From: Chloroflexota bacterium
Lineage (GTDB): Bacteria > Chloroflexota > Anaerolineae > UBA2200
Direction: 5' to 3'
Length of the DNA: 64,000 nucleotides
Assembly: GCA_014360905.1 (NCBI GenBank)
Contig: JACIWW010000001.1
Coordinates: forward strand, 62,001 to 126,000
The position numbers were made by a program, and so were the translations under genes. Numbering within the stretch: the stretch's first letter is position 1; the number at the start of each line of letters is the position of its first letter. Positions 9,867-47,461 of the stretch are shown piece after piece. Under the pieces are notes generated by a model. The model made no database searches. It was not told where the DNA came from and worked only from the letters and a program-made list of their open reading frames with translations.

Positions 9867-9937
9867 CGCTTCCAGCAAGGAAAGACTGCGGTCAATTCAC
9901 TCCCTGTGCACTAACAAAACACAGACAGCTCTATCTT

Positions 9938-10055
9938 CCACAGGCTACGAGGTTAGCTGACGGGTTTGAGAGGGAAGACTCTCCTACTCGTACCCACGAG
10001 ATACACCCCGAAAATTGGTTCCCCCGTTCCCCGCATGGGGACTCGCCAGAGCCAG
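9938..10055 (-). promoter_or_regulatory. c-di-AMP riboswitch (ydaO/yuaA type)
   Basis: Read on the minus strand, the leader has the conserved ydaO blocks in order: GGGGGAACC (complement of 10017-10025), CGGGGTG (10004-10010), a GTAGGAGAG/CTCTC stem, and CAGCTAACCTCGTAG (within 9943-9964). This last block is a hallmark of the c-di-AMP aptamer. A terminator follows downstream. In known examples c-di-AMP binding shuts off genes for osmolyte or ion transport and wall remodelling. Here it precedes a nucleotidyltransferase. Confidence 0.87.
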
Positions 10056-10076
10056 GAAATCTGTATTTTGATTGTT

Positions 10077-12714: not shown

Positions 12715-13880
12715 GACAACTTGTCCTCCCCAGGTTGAGGATTGCCAGCCCCTGCCGGAGCTACCTGTGGTTTCATCTCCTGCACAGGCGCCACACGCAA
12801 TGGCCACTTTGGTGCGCGCAGAAATCCCAGTTCAACCCTGCCCATCAACCCTTGTGGCCGTAGCAGCATGATCAACAAGAGGGCAATGGGATAGACCACA
12901 AAACGCCATGCCTCAAAGCCTTGTGGCAACCAGATGCGCATGCCCTCCAGCGAAATAGCCCACAAAAATGTAGCCAGGAGCGTGCCCGTCATGTTACCTA
13001 ACCCACCAAAGACGATGATGATCAGCGGGTCGAAAGACCTGACAAAGGAGAAATAACCTGGCGACAAGAAGGCATACAGGTGGGCGTACAGCCCACCAGC
13101 CAGACCGGCTAAGAAACTGCCAATGACGAAGGAGATGGTCTTGTATTTCAGTGTGTCAATGCCCATCGCCTGTGCAGCCACTTCGTCTTCGCGCACCGAG
13201 ACAATCGCCCGACCAACACTGGAATACAAGATATTGCGTACGATGACAATTGTCAGGATCAAGAAAATAAACGTCCAGAAAAAGGAAGTCATTTGCGGGA
13301 TGCCAACCATCCCGCGTGCTCCTTTAGTCTCTGGTATCACCTGGTCAGAGTTAATGATCAACACCTGTATCATGATAGTAAAGCCAAGCGTGGCAATGCC
13401 GAAATAATCCGAGCCCAAGCGCAAGAGCACAATATAGCCAAAAGCAAGACTGATTATTGCTGCAAAGACGGCTCCAATCAGCACAGCAACAAATAGCAAC
13501 GCTGACTTTCCGGCATCAAAATGGAAAAGCTCGACTTGGGCCATAGGGATGAGCTTTTGCAAAAGAGGCGGAATGCGCAGGACAATTCCTTGTATTGGAT
13601 AACTGATCCTCGCAGCCCAATGATAGGTAATCAATGCTGCAGTATAGGCACCAATGCCATAAAAGCCCCATTGTCCCAGTGAAAACTGTCCATTGAAGCC
13701 ATAGATCAGATTCAATCCTAGGCAAATAATGGCCATGATACAGGGGAATATAACCCAGGCTGTGCGGCGAAATTCCGTCATGCGCGGCATCAACACCCAT
13801 TGCACAACCAAAAAGACAACGCATACACCTACCCAGAACAACCAGCTTTGCCCTAGAAAACGAAACCGAGATTTAGTCAT
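12711..13880 (-). CDS. livM: Branched-chain amino acid ABC transporter permease LivM
   Basis: A 389-residue permease with about ten hydrophobic segments and the LivM family sequence NLIYGFNGQFSLGQWGFYGIG. ATG 13880 is chosen because AGGAG lies 5 nt upstream and this start leaves a short 19-nt gap after livH. A C-terminal hydrophilic tail of about 40 residues rich in Pro and Ala (VAPVQEMKPQVAPAG) is longer than usual. It forms the membrane channel with LivH. Confidence 0.94.
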   Translation of the reverse strand: MTKSRFRFLGQSWLFWVGVCVVFLVVQWVLMPRMTEFRRTAWVIFPCIMAIICLGLNLIYGFNGQFSLGQWGFYGIGAYTAALITYHWAARISYPIQGIVLRIPPLLQKLIPMAQVELFHFDAGKSALLFVAVLIGAVFAAIISLAFGYIVLLRLGSDYFGIATLGFTIMIQVLIINSDQVIPETKGARGMVGIPQMTSFFWTFIFLILTIVIVRNILYSSVGRAIVSVREDEVAAQAMGIDTLKYKTISFVIGSFLAGLAGGLYAHLYAFLSPGYFSFVRSFDPLIIIVFGGLGNMTGTLLATFLWAISLEGMRIWLPQGFEAWRFVVYPIALLLIMLLRPQGLMGRVELGFLRAPKWPLRVAPVQEMKPQVAPAGAGNPQPGEDKLS

Positions 13881-20005: not shown

Positions 20006-20077
20006 GCAATTCCCAGGTCTCGCTCTGGTTCGCTGGGATGTGGTCATTGGGATTTGTCCATTGATTAGGGGATTGTG

Positions 20078-20614
20078 ATGCTAATTGAACGGTATGAACT
20101 CAGATTGGAATCACCGCCATGTGATCCAGGCAGTGAGCGCTGGAGCGCTTTTGCACAGGTTGACACCGACATTGCAGAAGTGCTGCCCTATCTGAACGCC
20201 AAGCTGAGCGGCGCCATTTATGATCACAAGGCGCAGGTATTGACCTGGCGTATGGGCGGACGCGCTATCTCCATCCGTCCCCATGAGATCGCTGTGAGCA
20301 ACCTGCAGGATCGTGCCGAGGCTGAAGCGATGGTCAGACGCATGGTGGATTTGATCAACGAGACCTGGGAACAGCGGGAGCGCATTCAGCCTAGTCTGGT
20401 GAAGCGCGAACCACTCAAAGCGCTCGATGTCTATAAACTGCTGCCCGGGTCAAATTGCAAAGCCTGCGGGCAACCGACGTGTTTCACATTTGCTTTGAAA
20501 CTAGTGGCAGGACAGGCGGCAATATCCGCCTGTGCGCCGCTTTTTGAAGATGAATACCGTTCACAACGCACGCGGCTGCTGCAAATGCTCGAAGCCGCAG
20601 GAATCACAACTTAG
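20078..20614 (+). CDS. (Fe-S)-binding protein with CdhE-like 4Fe-4S motif (paralog 1)
   Basis: A 178-residue protein. ATG 20078 has AGGGG 6 nt upstream. The C-terminal third has NCKACGQPTCFTFAL then ISACAPL: a CxxCxxxxC...C motif like the 4Fe-4S domain of the corrinoid Fe-S protein CdhE/AcsC and RnfB. The N-terminal two thirds (DIAEVLPYLNAKLSGAIY, WRMGGRAISIRP) match the gene at 28273. It probably passes electrons to or from the neighbouring ferredoxins; the partner is unknown. It sits directly after the tandem-UGA gene. Confidence 0.75.
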   Translation: MLIERYELRLESPPCDPGSERWSAFAQVDTDIAEVLPYLNAKLSGAIYDHKAQVLTWRMGGRAISIRPHEIAVSNLQDRAEAEAMVRRMVDLINETWEQRERIQPSLVKREPLKALDVYKLLPGSNCKACGQPTCFTFALKLVAGQAAISACAPLFEDEYRSQRTRLLQMLEAAGITT

Positions 20615-20630
20615 CATAAGAGCAGAGGAG

Positions 20631-21134
20631 ATGCTTGACAAAAAGGAACTGAGTTATCGCCAGATCATTGTGGGACGTTTTCCGACCGGCATGGTAGGGC
20701 TGGATGAACTTTTCGAGTCGCTGTATCAGGCGGATAAGCTGCCCAATGAAGAACTTGGAGCAGAACTGGTCGCAGGGGCACGGAAGCATAATTATATCCC
20801 TGCATCTGCAGAGCGAGACTTTGCAGCAGCGTTGCTGCGGGAGTACCGCAGCTATTACGAACAAAAGCGTACTGGCCAGGCCCCAACAACCAAGCGCGGT
20901 GCGCCACGTCCGCAAGTGCCATGGTTTCCTATGATAGATGAAACGCTCTGCGATGGCTGCGACAAATGCCTGCAGTTCTGCAGCAGTGGGGTATACGCCA
21001 AGCGGGACAGTGGGGTGGTGTATGTCGTGCAGCCTTTGAATTGCGTTGTAGGCTGCGATGCCTGTGCACGCCTTTGCCCGCACCACGCCATTACCTTTCC
21101 GCCGCGCTCCATCCTGCGCACGATGGGGCGTTAG
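20631..21134 (+). CDS. Ferredoxin with N-terminal helical domain (paralog 2)
   Basis: A 167-residue protein starting at ATG 20631 (MLDKKELSYRQIIVGRF); a longer frame from 20532 lies inside the previous gene. Residues 1-80 are a helical domain of unknown type (GMVGLDELFESLYQ). Residues about 92-165 are a two-cluster ferredoxin: CDGCDKCLQFC and CVVGCDACARLC, again with the CxxxCxxCxxxC second motif. A PRPQVPWFPMIDE lead-in matches the other two ferredoxins of this island. Confidence 0.8.
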   Translation: MLDKKELSYRQIIVGRFPTGMVGLDELFESLYQADKLPNEELGAELVAGARKHNYIPASAERDFAAALLREYRSYYEQKRTGQAPTTKRGAPRPQVPWFPMIDETLCDGCDKCLQFCSSGVYAKRDSGVVYVVQPLNCVVGCDACARLCPHHAITFPPRSILRTMGR

Positions 21135-22082: not shown

Positions 22083-23708
22083 ATGCATAACTGGGTATAC
22101 ATCCTGCGTAATAAAATAGAAACTGTAGGGCTCGTCTTGCTGCTGCTCATCTTAGTTGCTGAGATGGAAAGTGGCGTTCATGCCGATGGCGTGGTGTATC
22201 TGTTCTATTTCTACGACCCCAATTGTCCGGTGTGTCAGGACATTCATGAGAGTGTCCTGGAGCCATTGCTTGCTGCTTACGAGGGACGCGTTGTCGCTCA
22301 TGAACTCAATATGGCTGACGCCGCGAACTTTGAGTTCTTGCTTGACCTGGAGAAGCGCTTTGGCGTCACCAATCCGGGCATTCCCGAGATCTTTGTCGGC
22401 GAAGACGTCCTGATTGGCCCAGAGGAAATCAGCACCCGCCTGAAAGAGCGTGTGGACTACTACCTAGCGCAGGGCGGCGTGGAACTCCCTGTCGAACCAC
22501 CGGCTGCAGCCCCCACCCCCACGCCAGAGTGCACTGAATGCACTGCCATCCATGAAGCACAGCGCACCGCAATGGCTGCCATGCAGACACCCTCACCGCA
22601 ATGGACGGCTACTCCCGTATCAGGCGAAAGACCACCCATTTATGTCGCTTGGTTCTACCAACCTGGCTGCGACCTCTGTGAACGGAAGGAGCATGATCTG
22701 CAGTACATCCTAAACAAATATCCGCAAGTAAAAGTGCAGCGCTTTAACGTGAAGGAAGAGATGGCACTGAACCAGTACCTGTGTCTCAAGGCCAAAGTAC
22801 CGGAGGAGCGACACCTCACCGCTCCAGCATTCTTTGTCGCGGATTCAGCCTTAGTCGGAACAGAGATCACCGGATCCAGCATGGAGGAGTTGATCCGCCC
22901 TTACCTCGAAACAGGAGCACCAGAACCTTGGACAGGCTATGAAGCGCAGAAAGAAGTCGTTGAAAAGACCATCTTGGAACGCTTCCGTTCGCTGGGCCTG
23001 TGGACTGTGATCGGAGCGGGACTGCTAGATGGCCTGAACCCCTGTGCTTTTGCTACAATGATCTTCCTCGTTTCCTACCTCTCGGTGCGCAAGCGACAAG
23101 GGCGCGAGATCATCGCCACCGGCGCCGCATTCACAATAGGGGTATTTTTCGCCTACCTCGGGGTAGGATTGGGCATGCTCAAGTTTCTCACCTCGCTGCC
23201 GGTGCTAAGTACAATGGGCAAGTGGATCTACGGCTTCACACTGGTGCTCTGTCTGGGCCTGGCTTGGGGTAGCTTCAGCGATTACCGCAAAGCCAAGCAA
23301 GGACAACTGGAAGACATGAGTCTAAAGTTACCCGATCGGATGCGTGGTTGGATACGCTACCTAATCCGCGAGGGTTCTCGGGCGCGGAATTACATAGCGG
23401 CCTCTTTGGTGCTGGGTTTTATTGTCTCCATTGTCGAGCTGGCTTGCACCGGACAAGTGTATCTACCCACGATCATTTTCGTGTTGGGTCTGCCGGAATG
23501 GCGTGCCAGAGCGGTTTCCGCGCTGCTTACCTACAACTTGATGTTCATCACACCTTTGATCTTCGTTTTCTTGCTCGTCTATTTCGGAACGACTTCTCAA
23601 CAACTCACGCGCTGGATGATGCGACGAGCCGCAGCAGTCAAGCTAGGCACTGCAGCGCTCTTCTTGCTGCTGGCGGGATGGTTGGGCTACAGCATCGCTG
23701 CGTTATAA
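22083..23708 (+). CDS. Two thioredoxin domains fused to a CcdA/DsbD-like membrane domain
   Basis: A 541-residue fusion. After an N-terminal hydrophobic segment (residues 13-35) comes a thioredoxin-like domain with DPNCPVCQD, then a Thr/Pro linker containing ECTEC, a second thioredoxin-like domain with QPGCDLCER (about residue 200), and from about residue 310 six or more membrane segments with the conserved pair DGLNPCAFAT and ELACTGQVYLPT, as in CcdA/DsbD/ScsB carriers. It should move reducing equivalents across the membrane to extracytoplasmic thioredoxin domains. ATG 22083 has GGAG 7 nt upstream. Its paralog is at 26073. Confidence 0.87.
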   Translation: MHNWVYILRNKIETVGLVLLLLILVAEMESGVHADGVVYLFYFYDPNCPVCQDIHESVLEPLLAAYEGRVVAHELNMADAANFEFLLDLEKRFGVTNPGIPEIFVGEDVLIGPEEISTRLKERVDYYLAQGGVELPVEPPAAAPTPTPECTECTAIHEAQRTAMAAMQTPSPQWTATPVSGERPPIYVAWFYQPGCDLCERKEHDLQYILNKYPQVKVQRFNVKEEMALNQYLCLKAKVPEERHLTAPAFFVADSALVGTEITGSSMEELIRPYLETGAPEPWTGYEAQKEVVEKTILERFRSLGLWTVIGAGLLDGLNPCAFATMIFLVSYLSVRKRQGREIIATGAAFTIGVFFAYLGVGLGMLKFLTSLPVLSTMGKWIYGFTLVLCLGLAWGSFSDYRKAKQGQLEDMSLKLPDRMRGWIRYLIREGSRARNYIAASLVLGFIVSIVELACTGQVYLPTIIFVLGLPEWRARAVSALLTYNLMFITPLIFVFLLVYFGTTSQQLTRWMMRRAAAVKLGTAALFLLLAGWLGYSIAAL

Positions 23709-44468: not shown

Positions 44469-44534
44469 ATAACTTGTGGTCACGGGACCGTCTCTTAAAG
44501 CATGTGTCCCTTGACTGTCTAATTGCCGACGGGG

Positions 44535-44580
44535 AGCCTCTGCCTGGAAGATGCATATCTACGTCTGGCAGGTAGAGGCT
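44535..44580 (+). promoter_or_regulatory. Leader stem-loop upstream of sufC
   Basis: AGCCTCTGCCTG (44535-44546) pairs with CAGGTAGAGGCT (44569-44580), one G-U pair, across a 22-nt loop, followed by CTTTCT. A second weaker stem (GTCACGGGAC with GTCCCTTGAC) lies upstream. This may be a regulatory leader; no known riboswitch class was recognised. Confidence 0.5.
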
Positions 44581-44624
44581 CTTTCTACGCTGTGGAAACA
44601 CACTCAATGCGAAAGAGGTGCAAA

Positions 44625-45380
44625 ATGCACAATGGCTATCTTTTGCGCGTGGAGAATCTCCATCTGCAACGACAAGAGAAAAAGATCCTGCGCGGCGTAA
44701 CTTTTGAAATTGCGCCCTGGCAGGTATTTGCACTCCTGGGCCGCAATGGCTCAGGTAAGTCCAGCCTGGCTTACACCTTGATGGGTTGTGCGGGATATAG
44801 CCCTTCCGAGGGACGCATCCTCTTCAATGGCCAGGACATTACCAACCTCTCCATTACCGAACGCGCACGGCTAGGCATGACCCTAGCGTGGCAAGAACCT
44901 GCCCGCTTTGAGGGACTGAAGGTAAAGGACTATCTCGCGCTGGGAATGAAGGAACCATTGCGGGAGCGGATGGAAGCGGCACTGAACGCCGTAGCTCTCT
45001 CTCCGCTCTCCTATCTGGAACGCACCGTCAACGATGCCCTTTCCGGTGGCGAACGGAAGCGCATCGAACTGGCTGCCGTCTATGCAATGCACCCGCGTCT
45101 AGCCATCCTCGACGAGCCCGATTCGGGCATTGATGTGCTTTCGCTGGATGACATTGCCCGTCTGATTCGCCGCCTGGCTGCAGAGGGAACTTCTGTGCTG
45201 CTCATTACACACCGCAACGAGATGGTATCGGTGGCTGATAAAGCAGCGTTGATGTGCGCAGGCGAAATCCTGCGCGTTGGAAAACCGCAGGCGATGTGCG
45301 ACTATTACACCAGCCGTTGCCAGCCGTGTGTGACGGCCGAAGCCGTGGAGCCCGTCGGAGATGAGTATGAGCGATTTTGA
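44625..45380 (+). CDS. sufC: SufC-like Fe-S cluster assembly ATPase
   Basis: A 251-residue ABC ATPase with Walker A (GRNGSGKSS), the SufC-type region TLAWQEPARFEGLKVKDYL, signature LSGGERKRIELA and Walker B (LAILDEPDSGIDV), the last being characteristic of SufC. ATG 44625 follows AAGAGGTG by 4 nt; an open frame extends to 44523 through the leader hairpin and is less likely. It overlaps sufB by 14 nt. It drives the SufBC scaffold in Fe-S cluster building, which fits a genome rich in Fe-S proteins. Confidence 0.9.
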   Translation: MHNGYLLRVENLHLQRQEKKILRGVTFEIAPWQVFALLGRNGSGKSSLAYTLMGCAGYSPSEGRILFNGQDITNLSITERARLGMTLAWQEPARFEGLKVKDYLALGMKEPLRERMEAALNAVALSPLSYLERTVNDALSGGERKRIELAAVYAMHPRLAILDEPDSGIDVLSLDDIARLIRRLAAEGTSVLLITHRNEMVSVADKAALMCAGEILRVGKPQAMCDYYTSRCQPCVTAEAVEPVGDEYERF

Positions 45381-46302
45381 AGCTATCTTGAAAGCCTATG
45401 AGCGCTCAGGGGGCAATCCTCATTTCCTCAAGTCATCGCGTGTGGCCAGCCTGGTCGTCAGCGGCAATCGCATCCTGGGTGCAAACGAAGTCGCTGGGAT
45501 TCACCTCATCTCTGAACCATTGCCAGATGGAGTGCGGGTCAAAGTAGTAATTGAACCAGGGATCAAACTGGACACCCCGGCCCATCTCTGCTTTGGAGTG
45601 ATCCCGACGGAAGGCACGCAGCGCATCCTATCCGAATTCGAAATTGGCGCAGGGGCCAAAGCGGATTTCATCGCTCACTGCACCTTCCCCAATGCCAAGC
45701 GCATTGTGCACCTCATGGAAGCGCAGATCCATGTAGGCCGCGACGCTCAAATGAAATACTCCGAGACTCATTATCACGGTGAAGAAGGGGGCGCCGAAGT
45801 GCTGCCCAAAGCCCAGATTGTCGTAGATGAAGGTGGGCAGTATACAGCAGAATTCACATTGACCACCGGTCGTGTGGGCAAGCTAGATCTGGATTACGTA
45901 GTGGACGTAGGCGCCCACGGAGTGGCTGAGCTGACCACCAAAGCCTATGGCTACGGTACAGATACCATCTCTGTGAAAGAAACTATCCATTTAAATGGCG
46001 AGGCGGCGCGTGGCCTAGCTAAGGCACGCATTGCTGTGCGCGATCAAGCCACCAGTGAGGTAATCGGCACAACCGAAGGAAACGCCCCCTTTGCTCGTGG
46101 CCATGTGGACTGCATCGAAATTGTACGCGATAAAGCGATAGCCAATGCCATCCCCGTGGTCAAGGTAACGGATCCCCGTGCGTACGTAACCCATGAAGCA
46201 GCCATTGGCACCGTGGACAAGAAGGAACTGGAGACATTGATGGCTCGCGGTCTGGATGAGGAGACCGCTGTGGATGTGATTATCCGAGGCATGTTACGGT
46301 AG
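45367..46302 (+). CDS. sufB: SufB/SufD-family Fe-S assembly scaffold
   Basis: A 311-residue SufBD-domain protein (EFEIGAGAKADFIAHCTFPN, and the C-terminal TDPRAYVTHEAAIGTVDKK). It is shorter than E. coli SufB (about 495 residues) and stands with SufC only, matching the minimal two-gene SUF-like systems of many anaerobes. ATG 45367 has GGAG 7 nt upstream; ATG 45361 is also possible. The conserved late Glu/His (YVTHEAA) is present. SufS/SufE partners are not in the window. Confidence 0.88.
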   Translation: MSDFEAILKAYERSGGNPHFLKSSRVASLVVSGNRILGANEVAGIHLISEPLPDGVRVKVVIEPGIKLDTPAHLCFGVIPTEGTQRILSEFEIGAGAKADFIAHCTFPNAKRIVHLMEAQIHVGRDAQMKYSETHYHGEEGGAEVLPKAQIVVDEGGQYTAEFTLTTGRVGKLDLDYVVDVGAHGVAELTTKAYGYGTDTISVKETIHLNGEAARGLAKARIAVRDQATSEVIGTTEGNAPFARGHVDCIEIVRDKAIANAIPVVKVTDPRAYVTHEAAIGTVDKKELETLMARGLDEETAVDVIIRGMLR

Positions 46303-46321: not shown

Positions 46322-46350
46322 TTGACTTTTGGGCAAAATTGTTGTATATA
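46322..46350 (+). promoter_or_regulatory. Promoter and operator of the third arsR-type gene
   Basis: TTGACT at 46322-46327, 17 nt spacer, TATATA at 46345-46350 (or TATAAT at 46347). TATAAA (46354-46359) and TTTATA (46366-46371) just downstream form an inverted repeat suitable for the ArsR protein. Confidence 0.65.
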
Positions 46351-46387
46351 ATATATAAATGTCGGTTTATACAAATGGGCTACGCTC

Positions 46388-46750
46388 ATGAAAATCATAA
46401 CGACAGAACTGCAACAAATTGCGCAGACAGAACCTAGCATCCTGAAGGACCTCGCTGCTGACCTGGGCATCATTGCTGACGAGACACGGTTGCGCATTCT
46501 CGATCTTTTGGTCAGTGGCGAGCAATGCGTGTGCGATATCACAAAGGCGCTTGAACTATCGCAACCACTGGCTTCCTATCATCTGGCGGTGCTACGCGCG
46601 GCGGGATTAGTACGCACACGCCGCGATGCACGTTGGGCCTACTATTCCCTCAATTGGCAACGCCTGCAGGGCATTGTCGCCTCTTGCCAGCAGCTTTTCG
46701 ATTCCGGACGTGTGTCGAATGTGCCAACACCAAAAGCACGTTGTCCATGA
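46388..46750 (+). CDS. ArsR-family metalloid-responsive repressor
   Basis: A 120-residue winged-helix repressor with ADETRLRILDLLVSGEQCVC, where CVCDI is the canonical ArsR metalloid site in the recognition helix region. RTRRDARWAYYSLNWQRLQG forms the wing. It heads a three-gene group with a seleno-glutaredoxin-like protein and a small protein, and the AT-rich inverted repeat at its promoter is the likely operator. Arsenite, antimonite or a similar thiophile is the expected inducer. Confidence 0.9.
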   Translation: MKIITTELQQIAQTEPSILKDLAADLGIIADETRLRILDLLVSGEQCVCDITKALELSQPLASYHLAVLRAAGLVRTRRDARWAYYSLNWQRLQGIVASCQQLFDSGRVSNVPTPKARCP

Positions 46751-46789
46751 ATACATCATGACCAACATTTGCAGAGGAATGAATTCACC

Positions 46790-47101
46790 ATGACGCAACA
46801 ACCTACGCGACCATGCAAATGCAAATCCCGTATGCAACCAGACGGTTCACAGAGCAAAAGTGCAGCCGCGACGCCAGCGCCAAATGCGGTCCAGATCTTT
46901 AGCAAAGCTGGATGTCCTTATACCCGTGCCCTAAGGCGCAAGCTGGAACATGATGGCCTGCCTTATGTAGAGTATGATGTGCTCCAAGAGCCGGATATGC
47001 TCCAGCGAATGTTAGCCTTGAACGGCGGGCAACGGAAGGTGCCCACTATCGTAATGGGCGAGCAAGTCATCATTGGGTTCCATGGCTCCTGAGCAGTATA
47101 A
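46790..47101 (+). CDS. Glutaredoxin-like selenoprotein ending Sec-x-x-stop (Uxx-star type)
   Basis: A glutaredoxin fold: AVQIFSKAGCPYTRALRRKL (monothiol-like CPYT site), VPTIVMGEQVIIGFHGS. At GS the frame meets TGA (47090-47092, residue 101), then GCA GTA TAA, i.e. Sec-Ala-Val-stop. A C-terminal U-x-x-stop is, from memory, the defining feature of the Uxx-star family of glutaredoxin-like (seleno)proteins. A bulged hairpin follows at SECIS distance. ATG 46790 is preferred over 46769. The N-terminus has CKCKSR. It is coupled to an ArsR gene, which suggests metalloid or selenium stress. Confidence 0.78.
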
Positions 47102-47102
47102 G

Positions 47103-47122
47103 CTGGCGGCCGTGCGCCGCAG
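47103..47122 (+). promoter_or_regulatory. Candidate SECIS hairpin after the Uxx-star UGA
   Basis: CTG-(bulged G)-CGGC pairs with GCCGCAG around the loop CGTGC (47111-47115). The loop starts 18 nt after TGA 47090-47092 and lies beyond the TAA stop, as for C-terminal Sec genes. Confidence 0.6.
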
Positions 47123-47164: not shown

Positions 47165-47461
47165 ATGAATGAGCAGGAATTGGAGGAATTCCTGGCCACC
47201 ATTACACCGGAGCGCATTCGCCAACTAGTTTTGGAGCTTGAGCCACAGCAACCTAAGGCGGATCGCGGCACGGTAGGCTTGTGGCAAATACTAGAAGCGC
47301 TAACCCTCGACCTGCCTATTACGGAGGCTGCGGATCAATCGCAGTTAGAGATGCGTCTGCGCAAAGCGGTCATAGCCGCTGTTGAGCAGATTGAGGGCAT
47401 GACTTTTGTCGAAGGCGATGGCTGATGAACCCCTGATTTCATCTCCCTGGAAGGGAGATAG
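47165..47461 (+). CDS. Small protein with possible tandem-UGA extension
   Basis: Residues 1-86 run MNEQELEEFLATITPERIRQ to FVEGDG, then two adjacent TGA codons (47423-47428) and TPDFISLEGR to TAG 47461. A perfect 8-bp hairpin with loop GGA begins 13 nt after the second TGA. GGAGAG precedes ATG 47165. If the TGAs are Sec codons the protein has 98 residues and a Sec pair near its end; if not, it ends at 47425. Family unknown. The hairpin could instead be a terminator, since the next gene is convergent. Confidence 0.5.
47441..47459 (+). promoter_or_regulatory. 8-bp hairpin, SECIS-like or terminator
   Basis: ATCTCCCT (47441-47448) pairs perfectly with AGGGAGAT (47452-47459), loop GGA. It starts 13 nt after the second TGA, its loop is at 20-23 nt, and it lacks a following T-run on either strand. 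Confidence 0.5.

Follow-up and report, generated by a model that had tools for sequence, protein, structure and literature searches.

An arsR-linked UXX-star family 1 gene with a predicted C-terminal selenocysteine and a SECIS hairpin beyond its stop codon in an Anaerolineae genome

The DNA analyzed, hereafter the window, was a stretch of 64,000 nt from a Chloroflexota bacterium (Anaerolineae; UBA2200; assembly GCA_014360905.1, contig JACIWW010000001.1, positions 62,001–126,000, forward strand). On its plus strand, an arsR gene encoding an ArsR/SmtB metalloregulator of 120 aa with an EQCVCD motif (46388..46750; NF033788, PF01022) was followed, after a gap of 39 nt, by the gene of a UXX-star family 1 glutaredoxin-like selenoprotein of 103 aa (46790..47101; NF041212, NF041114, PF00462 and an AlphaFold2 model). 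Near its end, this gene contained a TGA assigned to selenocysteine (Sec101, 47090..47092) and was succeeded on the same strand by a bacterial SECIS hairpin lying entirely 3' of the TAA stop (47103..47122) and by small86, an uncharacterised conserved partner gene of 86 aa (47165..47425). A candidate promoter with a dyad, found by eye and by dyad search, was located in front of arsR on the plus strand (46322..46371), and SufC/SufB-like genes, so named by profile resemblance, were present farther upstream (44523-46302).

The protein, read as 103 sense codons from the ATG at 46790, had the layout MTQQPTRPCKCK...CPYT...GFHGS-Sec-Ala-Val-stop, with PCKCK in an N-terminal extension, the glutaredoxin domain with CPYT after it, and selenocysteine as the third-last residue. 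The Uxx-star family had been named in the first-pass annotation of this DNA, and profile searches bore this out. When the whole-protein score was compared with the curated NCBIfam cut-off, with Sec entered as Cys and the tail included, the Uxx-star model NF041212 gave 88.6 bits (cut-off 66) and the UXX-star family 1 model NF041114 gave 76.4 bits (cut-off 72). The NF041212 score was 83.6 bits when the protein was ended at the residue before Sec, and PF00462 matched with 50 bits. By these scores, the protein is a member of UXX-star family 1, a selenoprotein family already catalogued and also called 'distant Grx-like protein 1' (PMC13188914). The glutaredoxin domain, the CPY[TSC] site and the C-terminal G-x-U-x-x-stop tail are shared with the family in general. 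What is new in this member is the N-terminal extension, an additional Cys-bearing segment (MTQQPTRPCKCK...) found in this genus, together with the arsR-linked operon containing small86. Among the aligned homologs, the CPY[TSC] redox motif was nearly always retained, and the N-terminal Cys motif was absent from most members.

Other families with the same domain were compared as well. In the HUGP/GUXX-star fusion (NF045501), a UXX-star domain also forms the C-terminus, but of a longer protein whose N-terminal domain is missing here; only the C-terminal domain aligned, and its 53.9 bits fell below the cut-off of 325. Glutaredoxin 3 (TIGR02181, 36.2 against 90) and NrdH (TIGR02194, 28.4 against 85.75) share the fold and the active site, but both scores were below the cut-offs, and the C-terminal helix of ordinary glutaredoxins was lacking, the chain ending in Sec-x-x instead. 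A single-sequence query of the genome contig collection returned no close relatives of the exact protein, an alignment query of the same collection gave 75 matches for UXX-star, and the search of a viral collection yielded distant glutaredoxins only, the best with 28–47% identity.

The reading of the TGA was approached by comparison. As the first-pass annotation had stated, the glutaredoxin frame meets TGA GCA GTA TAA; these codons occupy 47090-47101, in frame with the ATG at 46790. Among the loci fetched, 65 distinct homologs carried TGA in the corresponding column, from Chloroflexota, Actinomycetota/Thermoleophilia, Zixibacteria, Planctomycetota, a desulfovibrio, Eremiobacterota and others; the tail was U-x-x-stop in 61 of them and U-x-x-x-stop in the remaining 4. 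In seven further homologs, all from Chloroflexota, Cys replaced Sec, and the frame likewise closed after two more residues (C-x-x-stop). Every aligned member thus had Sec or Cys at this position, two residues before the C-terminus in the present protein, and none ended ahead of the TGA without either, the outcome that the first-pass annotation had named as contrary to its proposal. The Cys forms could not be attributed to a loss of the selenocysteine machinery, since the genomes carrying them contained selA too. The terminator itself was TGA in 18 of the 65 genes, two or three codons past the Sec-TGA (L058, L062, L081, L086, L090, L091, L100, L102, L105, L107, L109, L110 and L115 among them), so that in these genes translation must insert Sec at one TGA and terminate at another within 9–12 nt.

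The host genome contained all the genes expected for selenoprotein synthesis, namely selA, selB, selD and selC: SelA (584 bits), SelB (348 bits), SelD (377 bits, itself with an in-frame TGA and Sec-containing) and a tRNA-Sec with the TCA anticodon were detected. Among the homologs, one Sec-form gene (L130, tail GGGUHI-stop) came from a genome of 95% completeness, G402, in which no selA was found, which may reflect missing contigs or contamination.

The hairpin of 20 nt directly 3' of the TAA had the core GCGGC-CGUGC-GCCGC (47106-47120), with the loop CGUGC at 47111-47115. The first-pass annotation had described a bulged hairpin whose loop started 18 nt after the TGA; the distance was exactly 18 nt, and the bulged form, in which 47103-47110 pairs with 47116-47122, is an alternative pairing of the same element. 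Bacterial SECIS elements have been characterized by a G in the first two loop positions, a loop 16–37 nt after the UGA and an MFE limit of −7.5 kcal/mol (PMC13188914). Here, the loop CGUGC lies at 18 nt and the MFE was −12.3 kcal/mol. The folding energy of this single sequence was not unusual (z −0.13) and, since it was not significant, the case for the hairpin rests on comparison. A covariance model was built from nine relatives, with the window and its genus mate left out, and it detected the site with 30 bits (E 1.5e-5). This was the only clear match in the window, where the next best site scored 10.8 bits and no further copy of this SECIS type was convincing. Compensatory changes were observed at 6 of the 7 stem pairs among close relatives, a result reached in none of 500 shuffles. 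Moreover, when a hairpin was counted if it was of sufficient strength, with a G in the first two loop positions and a loop start 14–26 nt after the codon, it was found in 63 of the 65 Sec-form homologs and in none of the seven Cys forms (0/7), against an expectation of about 16–18% from shuffles of the same sequences. These comparative data exclude a chance hairpin.

A plain stop at the TGA, with a protein ending in GFHGS and a tail and hairpin that are coincidental, the latter perhaps a transcription terminator, would agree with a single-sequence fold that is no better than that of shuffled sequences. Nevertheless, TGA with a nearby stop recurs in 65 homologs, Cys takes its place in seven others, the hairpin is confined to the TGA forms and covaries in its stem, and the Sec machinery of the genome is complete; the hairpin has no T run and was hence rejected as a terminator. 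The Sec/Cys column and the hairpin contrast led to the rejection of the plain stop, which is extremely improbable, and the reading of the TGA at 47090 as selenocysteine is well supported by the sequence comparison. Clean natural material on the position rules of SECIS elements is provided both by the contrast between Sec and Cys forms, in which the hairpin accompanies TGA alone, and by the 18 genes in which a stop TGA follows the Sec-TGA by two or three codons.

The ArsR protein scored 92.7 bits with NF033788 (cut-off 55) and 66 bits with PF01022, carried a Cys-based sensor motif (EQCVCD, CVC) and was encoded upstream of UXX-star on the same strand. Only four above-cut-off ArsR genes were found in the genome (2.83 Mb), and the window contained three of these, so that an adjacency to UXX-star by chance is unlikely. 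Just upstream of arsR, a promoter-like sequence was read by eye (TTGACT, 17 nt, TATATA) with the dyad TATAAA-N6-TTTATA beside it; a consensus promoter scan gave no promoter above threshold upstream of arsR. The arsR genes of relatives had longer dyads over the −10 region, as in L047, with a 10-bp arm (ATAATTCAAC/GTTGAATTAT). The gene order, the CVC motif and the promoter dyad suggest that the UXX-star operon is under ArsR-type control, presumably with a metal or metalloid as the inducer.

The neighbours of UXX-star in other genomes were then compared, as the first-pass annotation had proposed for both ArsR and the small gene that follows. An arsR gene was present upstream in seven of the nine close Anaerolineae loci, which share ancestry and are not independent trials: directly upstream in three genomes (G000, G001 and G006), and at a distance of up to about 4 kb in four others (G002, G004, G005 and G079). 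In G003 and G053, the surroundings of UXX-star showed no ArsR. In G006 the order was arsR, UXX-star, arsM (335 bits, cut-off 263) and small86, and in G002 it was arsR, an ArsP permease (PF03773, 237 bits), a Trx/CcdA-like gene and UXX-star. The Trx/CcdA-like protein of the G002 type was also found in G003, and it is homologous to that encoded at 22083-23708 in an island of the window. A reductive dehalogenase-like gene preceded UXX-star in G004 and G005. In G000 and G001, arsR was immediately preceded by SufB/SufC-like genes, and in G079 and G006 SufB-like genes were located near UXX-star.

Outside this clade ArsR was absent and the neighbours were different. The selB gene adjoined UXX-star on the same strand in G019 (L041:8029-10203) and, by a partial match, in G054; trpS adjoined it in G007, G045 and G076; and in other groups the gene stood beside unrelated genes. 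The adjacency in G019 directly links the Sec elongation factor to this selenoprotein. ArsR linkage was therefore rejected as a trait of the whole family. Judged from the gene orders, the link is real but limited to this part of the Anaerolineae. The ArsR link that the first-pass annotation had assigned to the gene was supported, with two qualifications: the adjacency of arsR is conserved in related Anaerolineae, with arsM in one operon, but the association is not family-wide and the control itself is a deduction. Arsenic resistance operons (ArsR, ArsM, ArsP, ArsE, thioredoxin-type ArsC) resemble the locus in the ArsR adjacency, in the arsM of the G006 operon and in the ArsC-, ArsE- and ArsG-like genes of the window island; they differ in that the canonical arsB/acr3 was not seen beside this UXX-star gene, and the ArsC-, ArsG- and CcdA-like proteins of the window scored below the NCBIfam equivalog cut-offs. 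A literature search for UXX-star tied to ArsR or ArsM returned nothing relevant; the key papers of the family curators lay outside its scope, and no priority is claimed for the neighbourhood.

Two further genes recurred in this setting. The small86 gene was conserved (33–88% identity) and was found in 10 of 150 relatives, and no Pfam or NCBIfam family matched its product. It was positioned directly 3' of UXX-star in five genomes and after arsM in G006. In G027, G013, G135 and G117 the adjoining gene was ArsR, ArsP or Trx/CcdA-like rather than UXX-star, these neighbours being assigned by sequence resemblance apart from those that were profile-matched; in the loci L153-L157, the small86 homologs lay beside ArsR/ArsP and Trx/CcdA-like genes, an aldehyde ferredoxin oxidoreductase-like gene was seen in L157, and no UXX-star gene was adjacent. 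The second gene, dom97, encoded a domain of 97 aa; it closely followed UXX-star in G053 and preceded it in G079. In the UXX-star proteins of two genomes, G004 (L051:9701-10204) and G005 (L052, minus strand, about 13207-13735), a related helical domain with a CxCxC-type start formed an N-terminal fusion, and these fusions had neither an NCBIfam nor a Pfam name; the two domains were matched by hhalign with a probability of 96% (E 4e-9), from small profiles. Both the fusion form of G004 and G005 and the small86 family appear to be undescribed in the libraries searched. Within the window, a dom97-like domain was fused to a ferredoxin resembling HgcB (20532-21134) inside the island of ArsR-, ArsC- and CcdA-like genes, with an Fe-S domain protein beside it (20075-20614).

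The AlphaFold2 model of the UXX-star protein showed a glutaredoxin fold with a mean pLDDT of 84, low in the N-terminal 30 residues. Residues 32-99 of the model aligned with residues 1-67 of E. coli Grx3 (3grx, Z 9.3, rmsd 1.7). Residues 63-67 of Grx3 (GGCDD) we take to be part of its glutathione site, and this would place Sec101 two residues past the glutathione-holding loop. The helix that normally follows this loop was missing from the model. Given that position and the missing helix, cooperation between the active-site Cys42 and Sec101 would be the most likely chemistry.

The best overall explanation, to which we give a probability of roughly 0.7, is that the locus encodes a Sec-decoded UXX-star protein under ArsR, with Cys42 and Sec101 acting on a metalloid. 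According to this explanation, UXX-star and small86 would be transcribed from the arsR promoter once a metal or metalloid, either arsenite-like or an organo-arsenical, is bound by ArsR and repression is lifted. SelB and tRNA-Sec would decode the TGA at 47090 as Sec, directed by the SECIS just past the stop codon, and the product would be a thiol/selenol redox protein with the glutaredoxin fold of UXX-star family 1. Sec101 may then pair functionally with Cys42, in one version as an internal resolving selenol that stands in for external glutathione and in another as half of a soft-ligand pair, and the two residues could reduce the metalloid or hand it to the efflux or methylation machinery of the neighbouring island.

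Sec101 might, however, serve mainly as a metal or metalloid ligand, in a chaperone that also uses Cys42 and the N-terminal PCKCK, and not as a catalytic redox residue. The Sec of UXX-star and Sao proteins has been named as a possible metal-binding ligand in a 2026 review (PMC13188914), and both PCKCK and the CxCxC-type start of the G004/G005 fusion are Cys-rich. This role is rather unlikely given the conservation described above, in which the redox motif is kept nearly throughout and the N-terminal Cys motif is not. A second alternative is a general selenoredoxin, active in peroxide or disulphide reduction or in Fe-S handling, that is merely placed under ArsR here and does not have metalloids as a substrate. 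As ArsR linkage is absent outside the clade, a general redox protein may have been turned to metalloids only locally, and the SufC/SufB-like genes nearest upstream make iron-sulphur redox another possible setting; selB and trpS elsewhere, the reductive dehalogenase-like neighbour and the SufB-like genes near other members fit the same picture. The recurrence of arsR, arsM, ArsP and an ArsG-like CcdA in different arrangements within the Anaerolineae nevertheless points beyond a mere promoter accident, and we consider this alternative rather unlikely. A broader and speculative proposal would be that the proteins of UXX-star family 1 are self-contained in their redox chemistry, with the C-terminal Sec in the role played by glutathione in ordinary glutaredoxins. 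In Anaerolineae they may carry out the redox reaction of a module for (organo)metalloids, as yet undescribed, whose other parts would be ArsR, small86, a Trx/CcdA-like membrane protein and dom97, the last sometimes as a fusion.

Through this locus and those related to it, UXX-star is connected within a single clade to the genes of ArsR, ArsM and ArsP; with two further uncharacterised partners named, small86 and dom97, a specific test of the substrate becomes possible. The association with a gene island of arsenic type and with these unstudied partners is a testable clue to the role of UXX-star.

Additionally, a second candidate for a glutaredoxin-like selenoprotein was detected in the same genome (L038, G000:C2:135908-136102), with the TGA at the active site (TKTUPYCYQ). 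Elsewhere in the window, a c-di-AMP riboswitch (ydaO) was identified on the minus strand at 9927-10058 with 76.6 bits.
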